Positions 893 through 47,184 of a DNA stretch of 47,619 bases are shown here, in pieces. Position 1 is the stretch's first letter. Every line of letters begins with the position of its first letter. The translations under genes were made by a program, and so were the position numbers. The notes below the pieces were generated by a model. That model was given only the letters and a program-made list of their open reading frames with translations, did not search any database and was not told the origin of the DNA. The DNA comes from Bacilli bacterium (lineage in GTDB: Bacteria > Bacillota_I > Bacilli_A > RF39 > UBA660), in contig JAFURC010000032.1 in the NCBI GenBank assembly GCA_017472015.1, positions 1 to 47,619 of the forward strand, given 5' to 3'.

Positions 893-907
893 TAATATGT
901 GATTAAT

Positions 908-1783
908 ATGGAAATAATAAAAAAGTATTTAGATTACTTACAATATAATAAAAATTATAGTTTAAAAACAATTCAAAATTATGAACTTGATTTAAGAGAT
1001 TATTTTACCTTTTTAAAACAAGAAGGACTTAATTATAAAACTATTAAATATGAAGATTTAAGATATTTATTTGAACACTTTGAAAAAAATAAATTATCTA
1101 ATAAAAGTGTAAGAAGACATATTAGTAGTTTAAAAAGTTTTTATAAATATTTAAATTTAGAAGAAATAATAAATTATAATCCTTTTAATTATGTATCTTT
1201 ACCTAAAAAAGAAACCAAGTTACCAAGATATTTAACATATGATGAGTTACTTCTAATATTTCATAGTTTAGATATTAAAACTAATTATGATTTACGTGAT
1301 AGGTTAATACTTGAACTTATGTATGCAACAGGTATTCGGGTATCCGAACTTATTAGTATAAAAATACATGATCTGGATTTTAATAATCAAAGTATCAAAG
1401 TTTTAGGTAAAGGTGATAAAGAAAGAATAGTTTATTATAATGATGTTGTTAAAAACTTATTAAAAGAATATTTAGAAATATATGATACTTTAAATAAAAA
1501 GAAAAGTAACTATTTAATTTTAAATCAAAAAGGAGAAAAACTAACAACCGCAGGAATTAGTTATATACTTAATAAAGTAATTCAAAAAATAAGTTTTAAA
1601 AAACACATAACACCCCATATGCTAAGACATTCATTTGCAACCCATTTACTTAATAATGGTTGCGATATTCTAACGGTTCAAGAATTATTAGGACACGCAT
1701 CAATTTCAACAACCGGAATTTATACCCATGTAACCCTTGATCAAATAAAAGATGTATATTATAAATGTCATCCAAGAAGGTAG
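908..1783 (+). CDS. xerD: Tyrosine recombinase XerC/XerD type
   Basis: 291-aa tyrosine recombinase, expected to resolve chromosome dimers at dif with a partner recombinase. The N-terminal SAM-like core-binding domain covers about residues 1-85. The catalytic domain shows Arg in TGIRVSE, Lys in GKGDKER, HMLRH, GHASISTT and the nucleophile Tyr in GIYTHV. The C-terminus (DVYYKCHPRR) resembles XerD tails more than integrases, but XerC cannot be excluded. The longest ORF starts at GTG 899. I chose ATG 908 because the GTG belongs to the ribosome site and lies at or next to the predicted transcription start. No attachment site or phage gene is nearby, so a housekeeping role is likely. Confidence 0.88.
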   Translation: MEIIKKYLDYLQYNKNYSLKTIQNYELDLRDYFTFLKQEGLNYKTIKYEDLRYLFEHFEKNKLSNKSVRRHISSLKSFYKYLNLEEIINYNPFNYVSLPKKETKLPRYLTYDELLLIFHSLDIKTNYDLRDRLILELMYATGIRVSELISIKIHDLDFNNQSIKVLGKGDKERIVYYNDVVKNLLKEYLEIYDTLNKKKSNYLILNQKGEKLTTAGISYILNKVIQKISFKKHITPHMLRHSFATHLLNNGCDILTVQELLGHASISTTGIYTHVTLDQIKDVYYKCHPRR

Positions 1784-1792
1784 GTAATAAAA

Positions 1793-3577
1793 ATGATAAA
1801 TAAAGAAGAAATATTAAATTTAACTTATGAAGAATTTATAAATTACTTGAAACAATTAACTCGAGAAGACCAATTAAATTTATTAAAAGATAAAGAAATA
1901 TTAAATAAAGTATTTGTTTTAGATGAAAAAGAAAAAGATATTTGGAAATTTGAAAAAATATTAGAAGTTTATTCTTTCAGTGATTTATATTTCTATATAG
2001 ATTCAAATTTAATTAAAAGAATAAAAAATAAATATAAAAACAATCAATATGTACACATAGATTGCTTTATAGCTAAAAATAAAGATCAATTTATGGAAAA
2101 TATTTTAAACAATAAAGATTTACTAATTTTTTTCATAGAACAATCCAAATGGTTTTACTTTGATTTCGATTTCGATTATGAATTTGTTTATAAATTATTT
2201 AAATATATTGAAGAAAATTCCTTTGATTATCGAGAACTATTTACAAAATCAATTATTGAATTTAAAAATAATTTTTTAAATCAAAATATAGAAATTCCTT
2301 ATAAAAAAGAATTACTATTAATAATTTCTAATACAGTTCAAGATATAATCGACACTAAAAAAACATTTAATGATATAACGAATATAAAAAACTTTATTAT
2401 TAATTTATGGAATACAAATTTAGATTTATTAATTAATGAAAAAAAACTCACTAACTTAACTTTAAAAGATGAAAACTTTTTAAATTATCAAAAACTTTTT
2501 CTTAATGAATTAATTACTTTTTTAACAAATATTGATAACAAATTATTAAATATTCAAAATAATAGTCTTGAATACAGCGAAAGTTTTATTTTTAGTGTTG
2601 CTAGTATTTCTCTTAAAGATAAAGAAAAACAAGAGAAAATTTTAAAAGAAGATTTATCTAATAGAACCAAGAGAGTACTTTTAAGAGGATTTTCAAGAGA
2701 TGTCATTGAGGAATATATAAAAAATAATGTAATCCCTTTGAATAATAATGATATTTCTCGATATTTATATAGTTATGGGTTAGATTTAAATCCTTCTGAA
2801 TATGAAAATAAAGAATTTTTTATTCAATCAGTTTTATCAATTGATCTAACTAAAATGCGTGATAATCTTGAAAAAATCGAGAAAAATAATAATGCTGATT
2901 ACTTTTATAAATTAGAAGATGAGCTGTTTTTAAAAATAATTAGTTTATATGATTCAAATACTAAAACTTTAAGTTATTATAATCAAAATAATCCAAAAGA
3001 TAGTAAAGAACCTTATGAAATATTTTTAAATAAATATAAATTGGCATTTCCTGATAAAAATAATCAAGATCTAACTAGAAAAATCTTAGCCAATATTATA
3101 ATTGATAAATTATTTAAGGATAATATAAAAAATGTTTGTATGAATATTTCAGAAATATTATCTTACAATGCTTCTTTAGAAAAACCTTTATTAGATAAAG
3201 AAAAAATTAAATTTTATCAAACAATTTTAAATTTATTTGATTTAAATAGTGATAGTTTATTAGAAATTTATTTTAAATATAAAGATCAAGATATTGTTTC
3301 TAATTTTTATGATGATATTAATAGATTAAAGAAAAATGCTTATCAAGAAATAAAAGCTTCTTGTATTAAAATTGATGAAATAAAAGACTTAAAAAATAAT
3401 TTATTATCTTCTCGATATAATGTTGATGTATATGAATATAATGGAGAGCCATTTAAAGCATTAGTTAGTTGTTTAAATTCGGTTCAAGTTGATCTAAACA
3501 TTTTTGAAAGAAATTGCTATAGTTTAATTTCTGATAAAAATATGAATGTTTATTTAGAAAATGAAATCATTGAATGA
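1793..3577 (+). CDS. Unknown large protein, 5' part of an apparently split gene
   Basis: 594 residues, Lys/Asn/Ile-rich, hydrophilic and probably largely helical. No signal peptide, membrane segment or enzyme motif could be recognised. It starts 9 nt after xer (GGTAATAAAA before ATG) and so is probably cotranscribed with it. The frame ends at a TGA lying inside a 13-bp tandem duplication. Removing one copy joins it to the following 97-aa frame as a 682-aa protein. The tail (about 545-592) and the next frame together resemble the C-terminal part of long uncharacterised proteins of gut Firmicutes, but this is from memory and gives no function. Confidence 0.6.
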   Translation: MINKEEILNLTYEEFINYLKQLTREDQLNLLKDKEILNKVFVLDEKEKDIWKFEKILEVYSFSDLYFYIDSNLIKRIKNKYKNNQYVHIDCFIAKNKDQFMENILNNKDLLIFFIEQSKWFYFDFDFDYEFVYKLFKYIEENSFDYRELFTKSIIEFKNNFLNQNIEIPYKKELLLIISNTVQDIIDTKKTFNDITNIKNFIINLWNTNLDLLINEKKLTNLTLKDENFLNYQKLFLNELITFLTNIDNKLLNIQNNSLEYSESFIFSVASISLKDKEKQEKILKEDLSNRTKRVLLRGFSRDVIEEYIKNNVIPLNNNDISRYLYSYGLDLNPSEYENKEFFIQSVLSIDLTKMRDNLEKIEKNNNADYFYKLEDELFLKIISLYDSNTKTLSYYNQNNPKDSKEPYEIFLNKYKLAFPDKNNQDLTRKILANIIIDKLFKDNIKNVCMNISEILSYNASLEKPLLDKEKIKFYQTILNLFDLNSDSLLEIYFKYKDQDIVSNFYDDINRLKKNAYQEIKASCIKIDEIKDLKNNLLSSRYNVDVYEYNGEPFKALVSCLNSVQVDLNIFERNCYSLISDKNMNVYLENEIIE

Positions 3578-3581
3578 AATC
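3560..3581 (+). repeat. 13-bp tandem duplication at a frame break
   Basis: AATGAAATC occurs at 3560-3568 and again at 3573-3581, a repeat unit of 13 bp (9 bp identical plus ATTG). Because 13 is not a multiple of 3 it shifts the reading frame by one. Deleting 3569-3581 makes codon ATC (3566) read straight into CAA (3582), fusing the 594-aa and 97-aa frames without a stop. Confidence 0.75.
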
Positions 3582-3854
3582 CAAATAGTAAATGATTATA
3601 AGGGAATGAATGATGATAGTAAGATGTATCAAAGAATATCTCCATCATATGTAGTTTGTTTTGATGAAATAGATGAAAGATCTATAAATGCTGCTAAAAT
3701 ATTAAATATTCCAATTATAAAAATTAATAAACAAATGTATAAAAATGAAGTAGTAGAAGAACATTATTTAGAAGGTGGAGAAAAAGAAAGTTATTATGTT
3801 CCTCCATATACACATGATGACTCGGAAGATGTTTTTCGAGGAAAAAGTTTATAA
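3561..3854 (+). CDS. Unknown, 3' part of the split gene
   Basis: 97-aa frame overlapping the preceding one by 17 bp. It could start at ATG 3561, but no good ribosome site precedes it and an in-frame TAG lies directly upstream (3555). Its sequence is a domain tail, not a stand-alone start: SPSYVVCFDEI, then AAKILNIPIIKIN, a beta-alpha-beta-like pattern that suits the C-terminus of a larger protein. I read it as the continuation of the upstream frame after a duplication-induced frameshift. A separate, translationally coupled small protein is the alternative. Confidence 0.55.
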   Translation: MKSLNEIQIVNDYKGMNDDSKMYQRISPSYVVCFDEIDERSINAAKILNIPIIKINKQMYKNEVVEEHYLEGGEKESYYVPPYTHDDSEDVFRGKSL

Positions 3855-3862
3855 AAAAAGAA

Positions 3863-5005
3863 TTAATAATCTTTGATAGGAATAGATTTTAATTCTTCTT
3901 TTATTAAATCAGGTCTTTTAATAATATTCAAATATAAAATAGTTATTTTAAGTTCAAATTTCAAAACAAAGTCATCACTATCTTTATAGTTAGTAACAAT
4001 CGGAATATTAAGTTTTTCTTTAATAGTTTTTAAATAAAGTCTTCCTTTTTGATTAAATCCAAGTACTCTTAAATAATTAATACTAACTTTATTATCAACT
4101 TTTTTTAAATTCATTAAAATATGTAAAAACATTCGATTTAATCGATTATAAGTATATCTTTTAGTTTTAATTTTCTCAAGTAATTCCTGGTAACTATCAA
4201 TATCAAGAATTACTTTTTTAATACGCTTATCAATTCCTTCCGTGACATCTAAATATTTATCAAGTTCATTTATCTCATTTACTAATTTATATTTTAATAA
4301 GTAAAAATAATTATCTAAATAATTTTTATTGATATTTAATAATTCAAATGTTTCTTTGGGAATATAATTTTTAATATTTTCATTATTCAAATAGGCAAGT
4401 CTAATACTAGTAGCACTAGAAATATTCGTAGTTAATTCTTGATTTAAATAAGAATTAGTTCTTTTTATTGTTAAAGGTTTAATTTTATAATCATTCATGA
4501 TGATGGTTTTAACATAACTAAGTCCAAGTAAATCATTGGAATTACTAATTTTAACACCAGTTAAATTGTATAATGCTTTAGAAATACTACTTGGATAATT
4601 ATTACCAAGATCTAAATAACTTTTAACCAGTTCATCATATTTATTATTATAAAGAATAGTACTTGCTAAATTTTTTAAAGTATCAACATCATCTGATTCT
4701 GATCCAAAAACTAAATAATCCATATCAAGGTATTCTAAAATGCTAACCGCATAATAAGCAAAATTATCTGATGATTGAGTTGCAAAGATAAAAGGGAGTT
4801 CAATAATAAGATCAACTTGATATTTAAGAGCAATTCTTGTTTTATCCCATTTAGTTAAAAAAGAAAATTCGCCACGTTCTGTGAAACTTGAACTTAAAAC
4901 AAGCGTTATAAAACTATCGGGAAACATCTTTTTTATCTTTTCTAAATGATAAATATGCCCATTATGAAAAGGATTATACTCACAAATTATTCCAATTTTA
5001 TCCAT
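3863..5005 (-). CDS. tmcAL: tRNA(Met) cytidine acetate ligase TmcAL
   Basis: 380-aa protein of the TmcAL (YlbM) family, which activates acetate with ATP to acetylate C34 of elongator tRNA-Met. The N-terminal nucleotidyltransferase-like motif GIICEYNPFHNGH (residues 3-15) is diagnostic, followed by SSFTERGE and ELPFIFATQ. The longest ORF begins 15 codons upstream (ATG at 5050). I chose ATG 5003-5005 because it follows GGTGATTTT and starts exactly where the family starts; the extra residues MFLGDF are translation of that ribosome site. It is convergent with the split gene, with only 8 bp between, and is monocistronic. Confidence 0.92.
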   Translation of the reverse strand: MDKIGIICEYNPFHNGHIYHLEKIKKMFPDSFITLVLSSSFTERGEFSFLTKWDKTRIALKYQVDLIIELPFIFATQSSDNFAYYAVSILEYLDMDYLVFGSESDDVDTLKNLASTILYNNKYDELVKSYLDLGNNYPSSISKALYNLTGVKISNSNDLLGLSYVKTIIMNDYKIKPLTIKRTNSYLNQELTTNISSATSIRLAYLNNENIKNYIPKETFELLNINKNYLDNYFYLLKYKLVNEINELDKYLDVTEGIDKRIKKVILDIDSYQELLEKIKTKRYTYNRLNRMFLHILMNLKKVDNKVSINYLRVLGFNQKGRLYLKTIKEKLNIPIVTNYKDSDDFVLKFELKITILYLNIIKRPDLIKEELKSIPIKDY

Positions 5006-5021
5006 AAAATCACCTAAAAAC

Positions 5022-5050
5022 ATTATACAATATCTTATAATTTTATTCAA
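5022..5050 (-). promoter_or_regulatory. Sigma-A promoter of tmcAL
   Basis: On the minus strand TTGAAT (5050-5045), 17-bp spacer, TATAAT (5027-5022). The -10 ends 16 nt before the ATG, so the predicted leader is about 10 nt and carries just the GGTGAT ribosome site. Confidence 0.75.
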
Positions 5051-6479: not shown

Positions 6480-6683
6480 ATGAATGAAGTAGAAAAAATA
6501 AAACTGGAAGAAAAGAAAAAGATCTTAATGGCTATCAGAACAACTCTTGGAAGTCTTGGTCTTGAATGTAATAGCGGTATAGAACAATCTGATATAACTG
6601 ATGAGAATATTGAAAAAATTTATCAAAAAATCATCGAAAATTGTTGTATGAATGCAGATTGTAATAATATTTATAGGAGGTAA
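6480..6683 (+). CDS. Candidate FicA-type antitoxin
   Basis: 67-aa helical protein ending one base before the fic start, so the two are translationally coupled. Class I Fic antitoxins are small helical proteins with the inhibitory motif [S/T]xxxE[G/N]. Here SLGLEC (S25 to E29) has the Ser-Glu spacing but Cys instead of Gly/Asn. The Glu would compete for the ATP gamma-phosphate site of the toxin. GTGGTGTAG precedes the ATG and TATAAT lies at 6458-6463. The assignment rests on size, position and this partial motif. Confidence 0.5.
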   Translation: MNEVEKIKLEEKKKILMAIRTTLGSLGLECNSGIEQSDITDENIEKIYQKIIENCCMNADCNNIYRR

Positions 6684-6684
6684 A

Positions 6685-7272
6685 ATGGTTGAATTTGCAA
6701 AATATGTAATCCCAGGAACCAATATTCTAAAAAATAAATTTGGAATAACTGATCCGAAGGAATTGATAAAAAAGGAAGAAGAAATAATTCTTTCGAAAAT
6801 GAAAGAATTAGCGTTAAAAACAAATTTTGGTAATTATGACTCTAAACATTTATGTGACTTACATAGATATTTATTTAAAGACTTGTATGATTTTGCTGGA
6901 AATTATCGCGATGTTGTTATGTATAAAGGGAGAACTTATTATCTTCCACCTCAAGAAATTCCTAAAAAGCTAGAAGAAGTTTTGACTAAGTATAGAAATT
7001 TAGAAGTTAATCCTAATCCTTCGTTTGATTTAGCAAATCACTTAGCCAATTTTTATTGGGAAATAATAAGGGTTCATCCGTTTCGTGATGGAAATAGTCG
7101 AACTACAAGAGAATTTCTAAGAGAATATACTTTAGAAAGATTTAATTATCACTTAGATTATTCAAAAATTAACAAGGAAGATTTTAAGCAAGCTCTAGTT
7201 GAAGGTTATCCAGGTCTTTTAGCGATGGAGTTTTATAAAGCTTTAGGTTTTGATGATATTAAAAAATTATAA
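6685..7272 (+). CDS. Fic-domain AMP-transferase (probable toxin)
   Basis: 195-aa Fic protein. The active-site loop HPFRDGNSRTTR (residues 131-142) keeps the catalytic His131, the acidic metal ligand Asp135, and the Gly/Asn/Arg residues, with Ser in place of the third Gly as in many bacterial Fic proteins. The flap region MYKGRTYYLPP (about 79-89) is typical. The family usually transfers AMP to a protein target. I chose ATG 6685 and not the longer frame at 6652 because AGGAGG ends 5 nt upstream and overlaps the stop of the partner ORF. No inhibitory motif is seen in this protein itself, fitting control by the upstream ORF. Confidence 0.85.
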   Translation: MVEFAKYVIPGTNILKNKFGITDPKELIKKEEEIILSKMKELALKTNFGNYDSKHLCDLHRYLFKDLYDFAGNYRDVVMYKGRTYYLPPQEIPKKLEEVLTKYRNLEVNPNPSFDLANHLANFYWEIIRVHPFRDGNSRTTREFLREYTLERFNYHLDYSKINKEDFKQALVEGYPGLLAMEFYKALGFDDIKKL

Positions 7273-7301: not shown

Positions 7302-7355
7302 GTTCTACTTTAACCTAAAATACATATTCTTTATTGAATGGAAAGGTAAGTGTTT

Positions 7356-8831
7356 ATGGATAAAAAAGAAATTATTAAAAATTTAGCTATGCGATCTGGT
7401 GGAGATGTTTATTTAGGAGTAGTAGGAGGGGTTCGAACTGGGAAAAGTACCTTTATCAAAAAAGTTGTGGAAACTTTAATTGTTCCAAATATAAATGATG
7501 AATATGAGAAAAAAAGATGTTTAGATGAAATTCCTCAAAGTGCAGCCGGTAAGACTGTAATGACAACCGAGCCCAAATTTGTTCCTAATAATGCAGTTGA
7601 TATTAATATAGATGATTTTTCTTGTAAAATTCGGTTAATTGATTGTGTTGGTTATATTATCGAAAATGCCAAAGGAATAGAAGATGAAAATGGACCAAGA
7701 ATGGTAAAAACTCCGTGGTATGATGAAATGATTCCCTTCTCCGAAGCAGCAGAAATTGGAACAGAGAAAGTTATTAAAGAACATTCAAGCATCGGAATTG
7801 TTGTGACAACTGATGGTTCAATTGGAGAATTTCAAAGAAGTGATTATGAAAATGCTGAAGAAAGAGTTATTACAGAATTAAAAGAAATCAATAAACCATT
7901 TATAGTTCTATTAAATTCAACACATCCAATGTTGCCAGATACAATTCGTCAAGCAGAATCAATTCATGAAAAATACAACGTTCCAGTCATGCCAATTTCA
8001 ATTGAAACAATGACTGAAAAAGATATGTACGATATTTTGAGAGAAGCCTTATATGAATTTCCAATTTTAGAAGTAAAAATAAAAATGCCAGATTGGATAG
8101 CTGTTTTAAAACCAAATCATCCTATAAAAAAACTATATATAGAAAAAATTAAAGAAAGTGTAATTGAAATAGATAAACTAAGAGATGTTGAACATATAAC
8201 TAAACATTTTACAGAAACTAAAGAAATTGAAAAAGCCTACTTATCAGAAGTATCACCAGCAACTGGAGAAGTAATTGTAACCCTTGAAGCACCAGATTAT
8301 TTATATAATCAAGTTTTAAATGAAATCATCAGTATTGATATAACCAATAAAAAAGAATTATTAAAATTATTTCAAGAATACTCTATTGCTAAAGAAGAAT
8401 ATGATCAAATTAAATATGCTCTTAAAATGGTTAAACAAACAGGATATGGTGTTGCAACTCCAACATTAAAGGATATGAAATTAACAACCCCTGAAATTAC
8501 TAAACAAGGAACACGTTTTGGTGTTAAATTAAAAGCAACAGCCCCATCAATTCACATGATAAGAGTAGATGTTAATTCAACTTTTGAACCAATTATAGGA
8601 AGCGAAATGCAAAGTAAAGAATTAATAAATCACTTGATGAAAGATTACGAAAACGATCCAACTAACATTTGGAAAAGCGAAATCTTTGGACGTAGTCTTG
8701 ATGTAATTGTCCAAGAAGGTATTCAATCTAAAATAAGTCTAATGCCAGAAAACATCCGGTTTAAACTTCAACAAACTTTAACAAAGATAGTTAATCGTGG
8801 TTCTGGAAATTTAATTGCTATTGTCTTATAG
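7356..8831 (+). CDS. spoIVA: Stage IV sporulation protein A
   Basis: 491-aa SpoIVA, the ATPase that polymerises on the forespore outer membrane as the base of the spore coat. The N-terminus NLAMRSGGDVYLGVVGG is followed by Walker A GGVRTGKST (about 24-32), QSAAGKTVMTTEPKFVPN, DCVGY, and ENGPRMVKTPW, all close to Bacillus SpoIVA. The middle and C-terminal domains are complete, ending in the conserved GSGNLIAIVL. ATG 7356 was preferred to GTG 7350: GGAAAGG sits 9 nt upstream. There is no frameshift or truncation, so the gene looks functional. It lies alone between two Fic-family genes; its mother-cell partners (spoVM, spoVID) are not in the window. Confidence 0.95.
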   Translation: MDKKEIIKNLAMRSGGDVYLGVVGGVRTGKSTFIKKVVETLIVPNINDEYEKKRCLDEIPQSAAGKTVMTTEPKFVPNNAVDINIDDFSCKIRLIDCVGYIIENAKGIEDENGPRMVKTPWYDEMIPFSEAAEIGTEKVIKEHSSIGIVVTTDGSIGEFQRSDYENAEERVITELKEINKPFIVLLNSTHPMLPDTIRQAESIHEKYNVPVMPISIETMTEKDMYDILREALYEFPILEVKIKMPDWIAVLKPNHPIKKLYIEKIKESVIEIDKLRDVEHITKHFTETKEIEKAYLSEVSPATGEVIVTLEAPDYLYNQVLNEIISIDITNKKELLKLFQEYSIAKEEYDQIKYALKMVKQTGYGVATPTLKDMKLTTPEITKQGTRFGVKLKATAPSIHMIRVDVNSTFEPIIGSEMQSKELINHLMKDYENDPTNIWKSEIFGRSLDVIVQEGIQSKISLMPENIRFKLQQTLTKIVNRGSGNLIAIVL

Positions 8832-8925: not shown

Positions 8926-9816
8926 ATGAACATAAAAGAATTAATACAAAAACAAATGGAGGAAATTTATTTAAGTGGTAACTATAAAGTAGTTGATTTA
9001 AATTTTATTGACAATATTAAAAATTTAGAATTTTCAAAAGAAGTTTTAGAAGTTCAAAAATACTTTTTAGAAACTTATCGTGAGTATTTAGAAAATATAA
9101 AAACATTACCAGAAGAATTACAACCTTTATTTCTAAAAGCCTTAAAACATGATGAAATAGTTGCTAATCATACTTTAGAAAAAGTTAATCCTTTTACAAT
9201 TTCTATGTACATGCTTGCTAAATCAAAACCAGCACTAGATAAATTACTCGAAAAAAAAGAACCACTTGATAGCTTAGATTTCCAAAAAATTCATCAAAGA
9301 TTACTTGATAAAACAACTAGTAGTGAAAATGATCTTGAATATCGAATCGAAAATACAACTTTTGTTGGAAGTTTCTATAAAGGAGAAAGACAAATTGAAT
9401 ATTTACCAATTGATTATAAATTTATACCTGAAGCAGTAGATAGATTACTTGAAATATATAATCAAAACGATGATGATATGGAGTTAGCATTTTTAAAACC
9501 TTTGAAAATTCATGGTCTTGTAGCTGGTTTACAAATATTTAAAGATGGAAATACAAGATTTGCTAGAATGCTTCAATATGTATCCCTTTATAATAGTACA
9601 AAGAAATATATTGATGAAAATTTAGCATCTCCAGCCTTATATGCTTCAAAAACATATTATCCTATGAGAGAAAAATACCGAACTTTAATTAGAGAATTAG
9701 TTCTTAATAATACTCAAGAAAATTGGAATAAATGGTTTATTTTTAATTATCATCGATTTGAAGATCAAATCATGGTAAATGAAGAAAATATTAAATCTCT
9801 AAAAATGATTTTATAA
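8926..9816 (+). CDS. Fic-fold protein with catalytic His replaced
   Basis: 296 aa. The Fic core is visible at residues 196-214: HGLVAGL then QIFKDGNTRFAR. Aligned to HxFx[D/E]GNGRxxR the catalytic His is Gln203, while Phe205, Asp207, Gly208, Asn209, Arg211 and Arg214 are kept. An N-terminal ANHTLEKVNPF (80-90) sits where class II Fic proteins have their inhibitory [S/T]xxxE[G/N], again degenerate. Such Gln-containing proteins may be a conserved Firmicutes subgroup without AMP-transferase activity, perhaps binding nucleotide or acting as regulators. It has its own promoter and GAGGG ribosome site. Confidence 0.7.
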   Translation: MNIKELIQKQMEEIYLSGNYKVVDLNFIDNIKNLEFSKEVLEVQKYFLETYREYLENIKTLPEELQPLFLKALKHDEIVANHTLEKVNPFTISMYMLAKSKPALDKLLEKKEPLDSLDFQKIHQRLLDKTTSSENDLEYRIENTTFVGSFYKGERQIEYLPIDYKFIPEAVDRLLEIYNQNDDDMELAFLKPLKIHGLVAGLQIFKDGNTRFARMLQYVSLYNSTKKYIDENLASPALYASKTYYPMREKYRTLIRELVLNNTQENWNKWFIFNYHRFEDQIMVNEENIKSLKMIL

Positions 9817-12014: not shown

Positions 12015-12114
12015 GACCTCTCTAAACCCTTGAAAAATAAGGAAAAAAATTTTTTTCACTTTTTAGACAAAAATGCTAAAAAGACGTTTATATTATTATT
12101 GGAGGTTGTGATTG

Positions 12115-14184
12115 ATGAAAATTATGTATATCAAACAAACAGATTTAAAAGATTGTGGCGTCTCTTGTCTAATGGCTCTAGTAAGATATTATAAAGGCTA
12201 TGTAACAAGAGAATATCTACGTGAAATAACAAATACTACCAAAGAAGGAGTATCAGTTTATTCTTTAGTTGAAGCAGGTGAAAAATTAGGATTTGAATCT
12301 AAAGCAATAAAAGGAGAATTAAATGAATTACAAGACAAATTACCGGTTATAGCTCATGTAATTATTAATAAAAGTTATGGTCACTTTGTTGTCATTACCA
12401 AAATAACTGAAAAAGAAATCACCATTATGGATCCTAATGGAGGTTTCAAAAAGTTATCATATAATGACTGGATGAAAATAACAACCAAAGTTTATTTGCT
12501 TTATAAACCCAAAAACGAGATTTTAAAACAAAATAAAGAGAAAAGTTTTTCTAAACTCCTTTTTCCTTTATTAAAAGAGTACAAGATAACATTAATAATT
12601 TTATTAATATTTTCGGTAATATACACACTTTGTAATATTTTATTATCTTACCAATTCCAATTTTTCATCCCTTTAATTTCAAATAACAATAAAGAAACAA
12701 TTAAATTAATCTTTTACCTATTAATATTAGTCATCATTCTAAAAGAATTAACAAATTTATTTCGAAATATCCTAGTAAATTACGTTAATCATAAATTAGA
12801 TAAGACTTTAATAAGTGAAGTATACAATCACATTATCAAACTTCCATATCTATATTTTAAAAATCGCACCAAAGGAGATGTTATAACTAGAATTCAAGAT
12901 ATTTTTAAAATACGCGAAGTTATTAGTAAACTATTTATCACAGTAACCCTTGATTTAGTATTAATTGTTATTACTTTAATATTCATGTTTAAAATAAGTT
13001 TAAAACTAAGTTGCATTACTTTAATAATGACTATATTTTACCTCCTTATCATTATTTCATTTAATACTTTAATTACTAAAAAAATTAAAATACTAAAAGA
13101 AAAAGAAACTATTGTTAATAATCACTTAATAGAAACTATTAGTTCAATTAATACTATTAAAGGAATGCAAATTGAAAGCGAAGTAGCCAATAAATTAGAT
13201 TTTAAATATTCTGATTTTCAAAGCGAAAGTTTTGATTTAAATAAAACATATTATCAAGAGTTATTCTTCAAAGAATTAATCTATGGACTAGGTCTTTTAA
13301 TAATTATTTTTCTTGGAGTAGGAGAAGTTATAAATAATAATTTAACTCTTGGGAGACTACTAGTATTTAATAGTTTATTAGGTTATTATATAAATCCTAT
13401 TCAAGATATTTGTAATTTGCAATTATTATTTAAAGAAGGTAGTATATCTTTAATAAGAATAAAAGAATTATTAAATATTGAATGTGAAAAATTAAATCTC
13501 GATAAACGAAGCCTTAGTAAGCATTTAAAAGGAAATATAAAAATTAATAACTTAAATTATTCTTATAATGGAATAAATACTATTCTAAACTGCCAAAAAT
13601 TAGAAATCAAAGAAAAAGAACACGTTCTTTTCTATGGTGAGAGTGGTGGAGGCAAAAGTACTTTAATGAAATTAATTTGTAAGTATTTTCAAGATTATGA
13701 AGGTGATATTCTAATCGATAACCGAGATTTAAACACTTATAATTTACTTGATATCCGTGAAAAAATTACTTATATGTCCCAGGATGAAATAATTTATACT
13801 GATACACTCTACAATAATATTGTCTTGAAAAATAATATTTCCTATGAAAAGTATCTGGAAATTATTAAATTAACTGGAGTTGATAAAATAATAAACCGAA
13901 GTATTTTAAAAGACGAAATGTTACTCGATAATAACGGAAGTTTCTTGTCAGGAGGGGAAAAACAAAGAATACTTCTTGCTAGATGTTTAGCTAAAAATAG
14001 TGATATTTATATCTTCGATGAAGCAACCAGTGCCATAGACATTAAAAACGAACGAAAACTATTAAAAAATATTTTTGATTATTTAAAAAATAAAACTGTA
14101 ATCGTTATCAGTCACCGATTCAACAATCGTGATTTATATCAAAGATTCGTTTTAATTGAAAAAGGAGTTATATATGAATACTAA
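12115..14184 (+). CDS. Peptidase-containing ABC exporter (PCAT) for double-glycine peptides
   Basis: 689-aa membrane ABC transporter that trims leader peptides and exports the mature bacteriocin. The N-terminal C39 peptidase carries the Cys in DLKDCGVSC (about residue 14), His in GHFVVI and Asp in MDPNGG. The membrane domain with about six helices spans roughly 150-430. The NBD has Walker A GESGGGKST, signature LSGGEKQR and Walker B IYIFDEATS. Length matches the family. ATG 12115 follows GGAGGTTGTGATTG; the TTG one codon earlier was rejected. TAGACA (12064) and TATATT (12089) form a possible promoter. The 3' end overlaps the accessory gene by 11 bp. Confidence 0.93.
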   Translation: MKIMYIKQTDLKDCGVSCLMALVRYYKGYVTREYLREITNTTKEGVSVYSLVEAGEKLGFESKAIKGELNELQDKLPVIAHVIINKSYGHFVVITKITEKEITIMDPNGGFKKLSYNDWMKITTKVYLLYKPKNEILKQNKEKSFSKLLFPLLKEYKITLIILLIFSVIYTLCNILLSYQFQFFIPLISNNNKETIKLIFYLLILVIILKELTNLFRNILVNYVNHKLDKTLISEVYNHIIKLPYLYFKNRTKGDVITRIQDIFKIREVISKLFITVTLDLVLIVITLIFMFKISLKLSCITLIMTIFYLLIIISFNTLITKKIKILKEKETIVNNHLIETISSINTIKGMQIESEVANKLDFKYSDFQSESFDLNKTYYQELFFKELIYGLGLLIIIFLGVGEVINNNLTLGRLLVFNSLLGYYINPIQDICNLQLLFKEGSISLIRIKELLNIECEKLNLDKRSLSKHLKGNIKINNLNYSYNGINTILNCQKLEIKEKEHVLFYGESGGGKSTLMKLICKYFQDYEGDILIDNRDLNTYNLLDIREKITYMSQDEIIYTDTLYNNIVLKNNISYEKYLEIIKLTGVDKIINRSILKDEMLLDNNGSFLSGGEKQRILLARCLAKNSDIYIFDEATSAIDIKNERKLLKNIFDYLKNKTVIVISHRFNNRDLYQRFVLIEKGVIYEY

Positions 14185-14578
14185 TTCATTAGATAAATTT
14201 AGTTTAAAAATAAATAGCAAACAATTCTTAGCTGCATTTTTAATTATAATTTTAACTTTAATTATTATTTTTCTATCATTTCGCTGGAAAAACAAAGTAA
14301 CCTTCGAATATGAAGGAAAAGTTTTAAATAATAATATTTTAGAAATAACCAACTTAAGTTATTTAGATGTAAAAACTATTATAGATAGCAAATTAAAAAT
14401 TTTAGATAGAAAAATAACCAAAGATAATATTGCAATAGAAAAAATTCAAGATAAATATCAAATTTTAATTAATTTAGAGCAATTTTCTATTCCAGGAGAC
14501 AAGTTAAAACTTAATTGTATATATCTTGAAGAAAGTCTATTTCAATTTATCAAAAATACTATGAAAGGAGAAATTTAA
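14174..14578 (+). CDS. Short single-pass membrane accessory protein of bacteriocin export
   Basis: 134 aa: a short cytosolic N-terminus, one strong transmembrane segment (about 21-41, AAFLIIILTLIIIFLSF), and an extracytoplasmic domain of about 90 residues. Position directly after the exporter matches the HlyD/LcnD-type adaptor, but those are usually about 400 aa with coiled-coil hairpins. Here only something like a terminal beta domain remains. ATG 14174 follows AAAGGAG, lies inside the exporter's 3' end, and is preferred to the longer frame at 14156. The function as exporter partner is inferred from context. Confidence 0.65.
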   Translation: MNTNSLDKFSLKINSKQFLAAFLIIILTLIIIFLSFRWKNKVTFEYEGKVLNNNILEITNLSYLDVKTIIDSKLKILDRKITKDNIAIEKIQDKYQILINLEQFSIPGDKLKLNCIYLEESLFQFIKNTMKGEI

Positions 14579-46655: not shown

Positions 46656-46940
46656 TTATTTAACTTTATCATAGTGCGTCCACATTCTAATTATATGAAT
46701 TTCTTTTTTTTCTTCATCGGCCTCATATACAATTCTATGTTGCCTGTTAATTCGTTTTGAATACAATCCATCTAAATCTCCATTTAATTTTTCAAATGTT
46801 GGTGGATAGCAAAATGGATTTACTTGCATTAAGTCTAAAATATTTTTACAATTTTTATCTAAATTTGAACTCTTTAATTTTAATTTATCTTTTTCTGCTT
46901 GTTTAGAAAATTTAATAGTATAATTTTTACCATTCTTCAT
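46656..46940 (-). CDS. yoeB: YoeB-type mRNA interferase toxin
   Basis: 94-aa RelE-superfamily ribosome-dependent mRNA endonuclease. The family pattern is clear: NYTIKFSKQAEKDKLKLK, KLNGDLDGLYSKRINRQHRIVYE and a C-terminal IHIIRMWTHYD containing the catalytic His-Tyr. I start at ATG 46938-46940 (MKNGKN), with AAGGAG upstream inside the antitoxin gene and a 14-bp overlap with its end; the longer frame to 46991 has no support. Translationally coupled to the antitoxin. Confidence 0.92.
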   Translation of the reverse strand: MKNGKNYTIKFSKQAEKDKLKLKSSNLDKNCKNILDLMQVNPFCYPPTFEKLNGDLDGLYSKRINRQHRIVYEADEEKKEIHIIRMWTHYDKVK

Positions 46941-47184
46941 TTGGATCGTACTCCTTTGCCGAGGTCCAATCTTCATTTTTTCTAATTTCATTTATATTTT
47001 CAACAAGACCAGGTATACTTGATAGAAAAAGAGTCTCTTCAATTCCTTTCCATTCATCTTCTGAAATTAAAACTGCATTTTTGCCTTTATTATTTACAAT
47101 TGTAATCGGATTAAAACCAATATTTACATCAGCTACTAACTGAAATAAATTTTGTCTTGCATTTGTAATATTTATAGTATTCAC
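46927..47184 (-). CDS. yefM: YefM/Phd-family antitoxin
   Basis: 85-aa antitoxin. The N-terminal Phd/YefM DNA-binding domain (INITNARQNLFQLVADVN, then PITIVNNKGKNAVLISEDEW) is followed by a toxin-binding tail (LVENINEIRKNEDW). It starts at GTG (47184-47182) 3 nt after GGTGAT, the position expected from the protein's N-terminus. It neutralises YoeB and represses the operon through the upstream GTAC repeats. Confidence 0.92.
   Translation of the reverse strand: MNTINITNARQNLFQLVADVNIGFNPITIVNNKGKNAVLISEDEWKGIEETLFLSSIPGLVENINEIRKNEDWTSAKEYDPNEEW

Follow-up and report, generated by a model that had tools for sequence, protein, structure and literature searches.

An internal deletion as the probable cause of a broken reading frame at the xerD-tmcAL locus of an uncultured Bacilli bacterium

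The window analysed here, a stretch of 47,619 nucleotides (contig JAFURC010000032.1 of assembly GCA_017472015.1), carries between a xerD and a tmcAL-like gene two overlapping reading frames that appear to be the halves of one gene, and the question which this locus raises is what broke that gene. A previous, sequence-only reading attributed the break to a 13-bp tandem duplication at the point where the two frames meet. The host is an uncultured, AT-rich gut-type bacterium, and its genome is a draft of 49 contigs that is 92.5% complete and 5.05% contaminated. The features of the locus, in window positions, are as follows.

899 to 1783, forward strand: XerD-type tyrosine recombinase, the upstream locus anchor (Pfam Phage_integrase, E 2e-46; genus orthologues 69-76% identical)
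1793 to 3577, forward strand: 5' part of the broken gene, a 594-aa ORF with a helical N-terminal region and the first half of a conserved C-terminal domain
3560 to 3568, forward strand: first AATGAAATC, encoding the 'NEI' of a variable NEII, directly before the breakpoint
3561 to 3854, forward strand: 3' part of the broken gene, a 97-aa ORF, now in the +1 frame
3569 to 3572, no strand: putative deletion junction (ATTG), with approximately 137 nt fewer than in homologues and a block absent
3573 to 3581, forward strand: second AATGAAATC, encoding the 'NEI' of a conserved NEIQI, after the missing block
3863 to 5050, reverse strand: tmcAL-like nucleotidyltransferase, the downstream locus anchor (Pfam HIGH_NTase1, E 9e-112; orthologues in 16 of 16 congeners)

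The overlapping frames are present as previously described, and they differ by +1. The first starts at an ATG (1793) with a good ribosome-binding site (AAGGTAGG) ahead of it and ends at a premature TGA (3575-3577), while no ribosome-binding site was found upstream of the ATG at 3561. The view of the second frame as a domain tail was borne out, as in homologues this tail is read in frame with the remainder of the protein. Two separate overlapping genes are therefore unsupported, given the lack of start signals for the second frame and the in-frame position of the tail in aligned relatives. Reading the TGA as Trp was discarded, since the first frame then reaches a TAA eight codons later without joining the tail. 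Programmed ribosomal frameshifting likewise finds no support, because homologues are single-frame at this point and display no conserved frame transition.

Close relatives of both halves were identified in three congeners (G002, G011 and G015) in a search of 57 other genomes. In each, both halves lie within one open frame of 564-605 codons, and the gene order is that of the window (xerD, gene, tmcAL); this shared site indicates that the three genes are positional orthologues. A scan of contigs using the window piece returned no match, and a scan using the alignment recovered the three known relatives alone, all in assemblies of uncultured bacteria. Of 291 family genomes scanned with a profile of the three homologues, 36 contained relatives, the genome of the window included, and an alignment of 27 other family members showed all of them to be unbroken across the position of the window's break and through the block. 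The gene is thus continuous in the three congeners and in more distant relatives, as expected where one gene was split by mutation, and the pattern that would have spoken against such a split, i.e. homologues always encoding two proteins with the same overlap, was seen in no homologue. The broken gene shares 38-40% identity with its counterpart in G002, compared to 76-80% for the neighbouring genes, and thus evolves fast. A second tmcAL-like gene, 37% identical, is present in the window's genome (G000:C41:3714-4835; L038, L083) and could be a paralogue or a product of the 5% contamination; of the other 16 congeners, G009 alone shows multiple tmcAL-like matches, which are two pieces.

Comparison with the three homologues revealed what is missing at the break. 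Upstream, the window is colinear with them through RNCYSLISDKNMNVYLENEII, and downstream from NEIQIVND. Between these flanks the homologues carry 46-47 residues (e.g. FGYTNIPIDHIMHVFENDACSDSLIGGSNYINRIRALDFLLRDKKM in L015); no more than the final base of this segment is retained in the window. RNCYS and NEIQ are separated by 64 nt in the window, by 201 nt in L015 and L017, and by 204 nt in L016, such that the window lacks 137-140 nt (2 mod 3), or a block of 45-47 residues, a length derived from protein-level homologues of which the nearest is about 40% identical in this gene. A loss of approximately 137 nt would explain the shift in frame and the absent sequence at once, without inserted bases. 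None of the 13 residues of the block that are invariant among the homologues is present in the window. Across 25 diverse members the domain has five invariant and five nearly invariant columns; the near-invariant H141 and the invariant D146 (A2 numbering) fall within the missing block, while N175/E176 open the tail, and the match of the A2 profile to the window runs as far as position 134 and resumes at 175, the interval being unmatched. A profile search of the window's genome found no other copy of the domain, and a search of that genome with the missing block alone gave one match only (E 0.1). The sequence on either side of the break is well preserved: of the residues invariant in the three homologues, 20 of 27 are retained by the tail and 58 of 70 by the upstream core, and the tail is 35-44% identical to the homologues, which are 41-51% identical among themselves. 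Conservation of the tail thus comes close to that of intact homologues, which suggests a young break.

The proposal of a 13-bp tandem duplication, i.e. a recent insertion or a phase-variable slippage site at which loss of one unit restores a working gene, draws on a 9-bp match at a spacing of 13 and on the fusion of the two frames when 13 bp are removed. A true 13-bp duplication would leave 26 bp with a period of 13; here only nine of 13 bases repeat, the two copies of AATGAAATC being followed by ATTG and CAAA, respectively, and preceded by differing bases. The broken gene is 81% AT and contains six direct repeats of at least 9 bp at offsets 4-30, against means of 3.0 in dinucleotide shuffles and 3.1 in codon shuffles, with at least one such repeat in 98% of the dinucleotide shuffles, although at exactly offset 13 the shuffle mean is only 0.1 per gene. 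Given this composition and these counts, the 9-bp repeat alone is unremarkable and provides no evidence for a mechanism. It appears to be a coincidental likeness of the 'NEI(I)' before the block and the 'NEI(Q)' after it, two sequences which the deletion would have joined. The arithmetic of the earlier claim holds, as 2062 minus 13 gives 2049 nt, or 682 codons and a stop, yet the resulting frame would not be the ancestral protein, the conserved block of the homologues being still missing. The same result tells against a reversible 13-bp slippage site: phase-variable coding repeats (contingency loci) likewise place a short repeat within the reading frame at the break, but they would call for a true multi-unit tandem repeat beyond chance and for a change in unit number that restores the ancestral gene, whereas the window has 1.7 copies of an imperfect unit and a one-unit change leaves that gene unrestored. 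We thus regard a duplication as extremely unlikely; that one gene was split by mutation stands, with a deletion of approximately 137 nt in the place of the duplication as its probable cause.

It is also conceivable that the organism has the block and that the contig joins the wrong bases through an assembly or binning artefact, for which the draft and partly contaminated state of the genome, together with the little or no decay in the tail, may be cited. Usual assembly k-mers are much longer than 9 bp, and reads with the junction should therefore exist; moreover, the flanks form one syntenic locus. This explanation is rather unlikely, and we infer that the deletion occurred in the organism rather than in the assembly. 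The retention of invariant residues on both sides of the break could alternatively reflect a functional rearrangement, with a continued role for the short first protein or for a +1 frameshift product, and the upstream part could make a working shorter protein. Such a rearrangement is highly unlikely, considering that the GAA TGA context lacks the usual +1 slippery motif (by eye), that the split occurs in no homologue, that no frame contains the block that carries the invariant Asp, and that the tail has no ribosome-binding site.

The gene is, with high probability, a young pseudogene, or at least a truncated allele, derived from a dispensable accessory gene through one internal deletion, at a locus where orthologues at the same site have one continuous frame and where the conserved sequence lost at the break is not a multiple of three in length. 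When intact, the gene makes a single protein of some 550-600 aa. The deletion of approximately 137 nt (45 codons and 2 nt) would have removed a block of the C-terminal domain and shifted the frame, so that translation from 1793 would halt at the TGA at 3575 and yield a protein that lacks both block and tail, a truncated product that is probably inactive. This is an ordinary gene-decay event. Young frameshift and deletion pseudogenes of bacteria (Kuo and Ochman 2010; PMC2916853) are alike in having a single disrupting indel with the frame otherwise well preserved and in the absence of the gene from many relatives, with no difference in kind from the present case; in Salmonella, young pseudogenes are known to be removed quickly (PMC2916853).

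Among the 16 congeners compared, 13 lack the gene between xerD and tmcAL, where the spacing is 22-43 bp. In a tree of the two neighbouring genes, carriers are mixed with the non-carriers G008, G016 and G001, and these all fall within the same half of the genus tree (midpoint-rooted). This pattern fits an old gene that was lost several times, and could also have arisen by repeated gain at the xerD-tmcAL site. G016 has a related gene at another genome position. The occurrence of intact, broken and absent versions at the same site might suggest selection for repeated loss, the deletion then being an on/off variant that occurs naturally at the population level in a fast-evolving accessory protein; this is improbable, and the species of the window's gene is represented by one genome.

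The gene belongs to a protein family (A1 profile, E 3e-83) whose C-terminal domain follows the pattern Y..L.GE.F...S.SLI...GF...H....DS.S...YNEI...P.Y...FD. The window copy differs from this uncharacterised family in lacking the H....D block and in being frameshifted. No significant match to the two window pieces was found in Pfam or NCBIfam, no consistent match to the domain alignment in Pfam, PADLOC, PHROGs or PDB, and no family members in phage records and viral contigs. AlphaFold, applied to three sequences, predicted the N-terminal part of an intact homologue (L015/L084) to be helical (residues 13-366), mostly with confidence, while the C-terminal domain was of low confidence (blocks mostly 25-61 pLDDT; mean 44 for the domain alone) and Foldseek against PDB returned nothing at E <= 0.001. 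The three syntenic homologues lack approximately 110 residues that the broken gene has in its N-terminal helical region (window ~2240-2600; residues ~150-270 of the 594-aa ORF). A portion of the family's C-terminal domain also matches within much larger proteins in G014, G013 and G015 (L096, L097 and L099, respectively; open frames of 1128-2226 codons).

Elsewhere in the window, two Fic-domain genes (6480-7272 and 8926-9816; Pfam E 7e-18 and 4e-08) flank a gene at 7350-8831 which we take to be SpoIVA-like, and an overlapping 67-aa ORF that could encode an antitoxin precedes the first of them. A YoeB-type toxin gene of a bacterial toxin-antitoxin system is located at 46656-46991 on the reverse strand (Pfam E 9e-09). 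The region 12112-14578 holds a peptidase-C39 ABC exporter of the bacteriocin type and, overlapping it on the downstream side, a 140-aa ORF that contains a hydrophobic stretch and has no match in Pfam.

The main value of these results lies in the corrected cause: a repeat at a frame break resembles slippage, while homologues reveal a larger deletion. The locus furthermore points to a fast-evolving protein family, without a name in the libraries searched, whose gene is repeatedly missing from one position on the chromosome.
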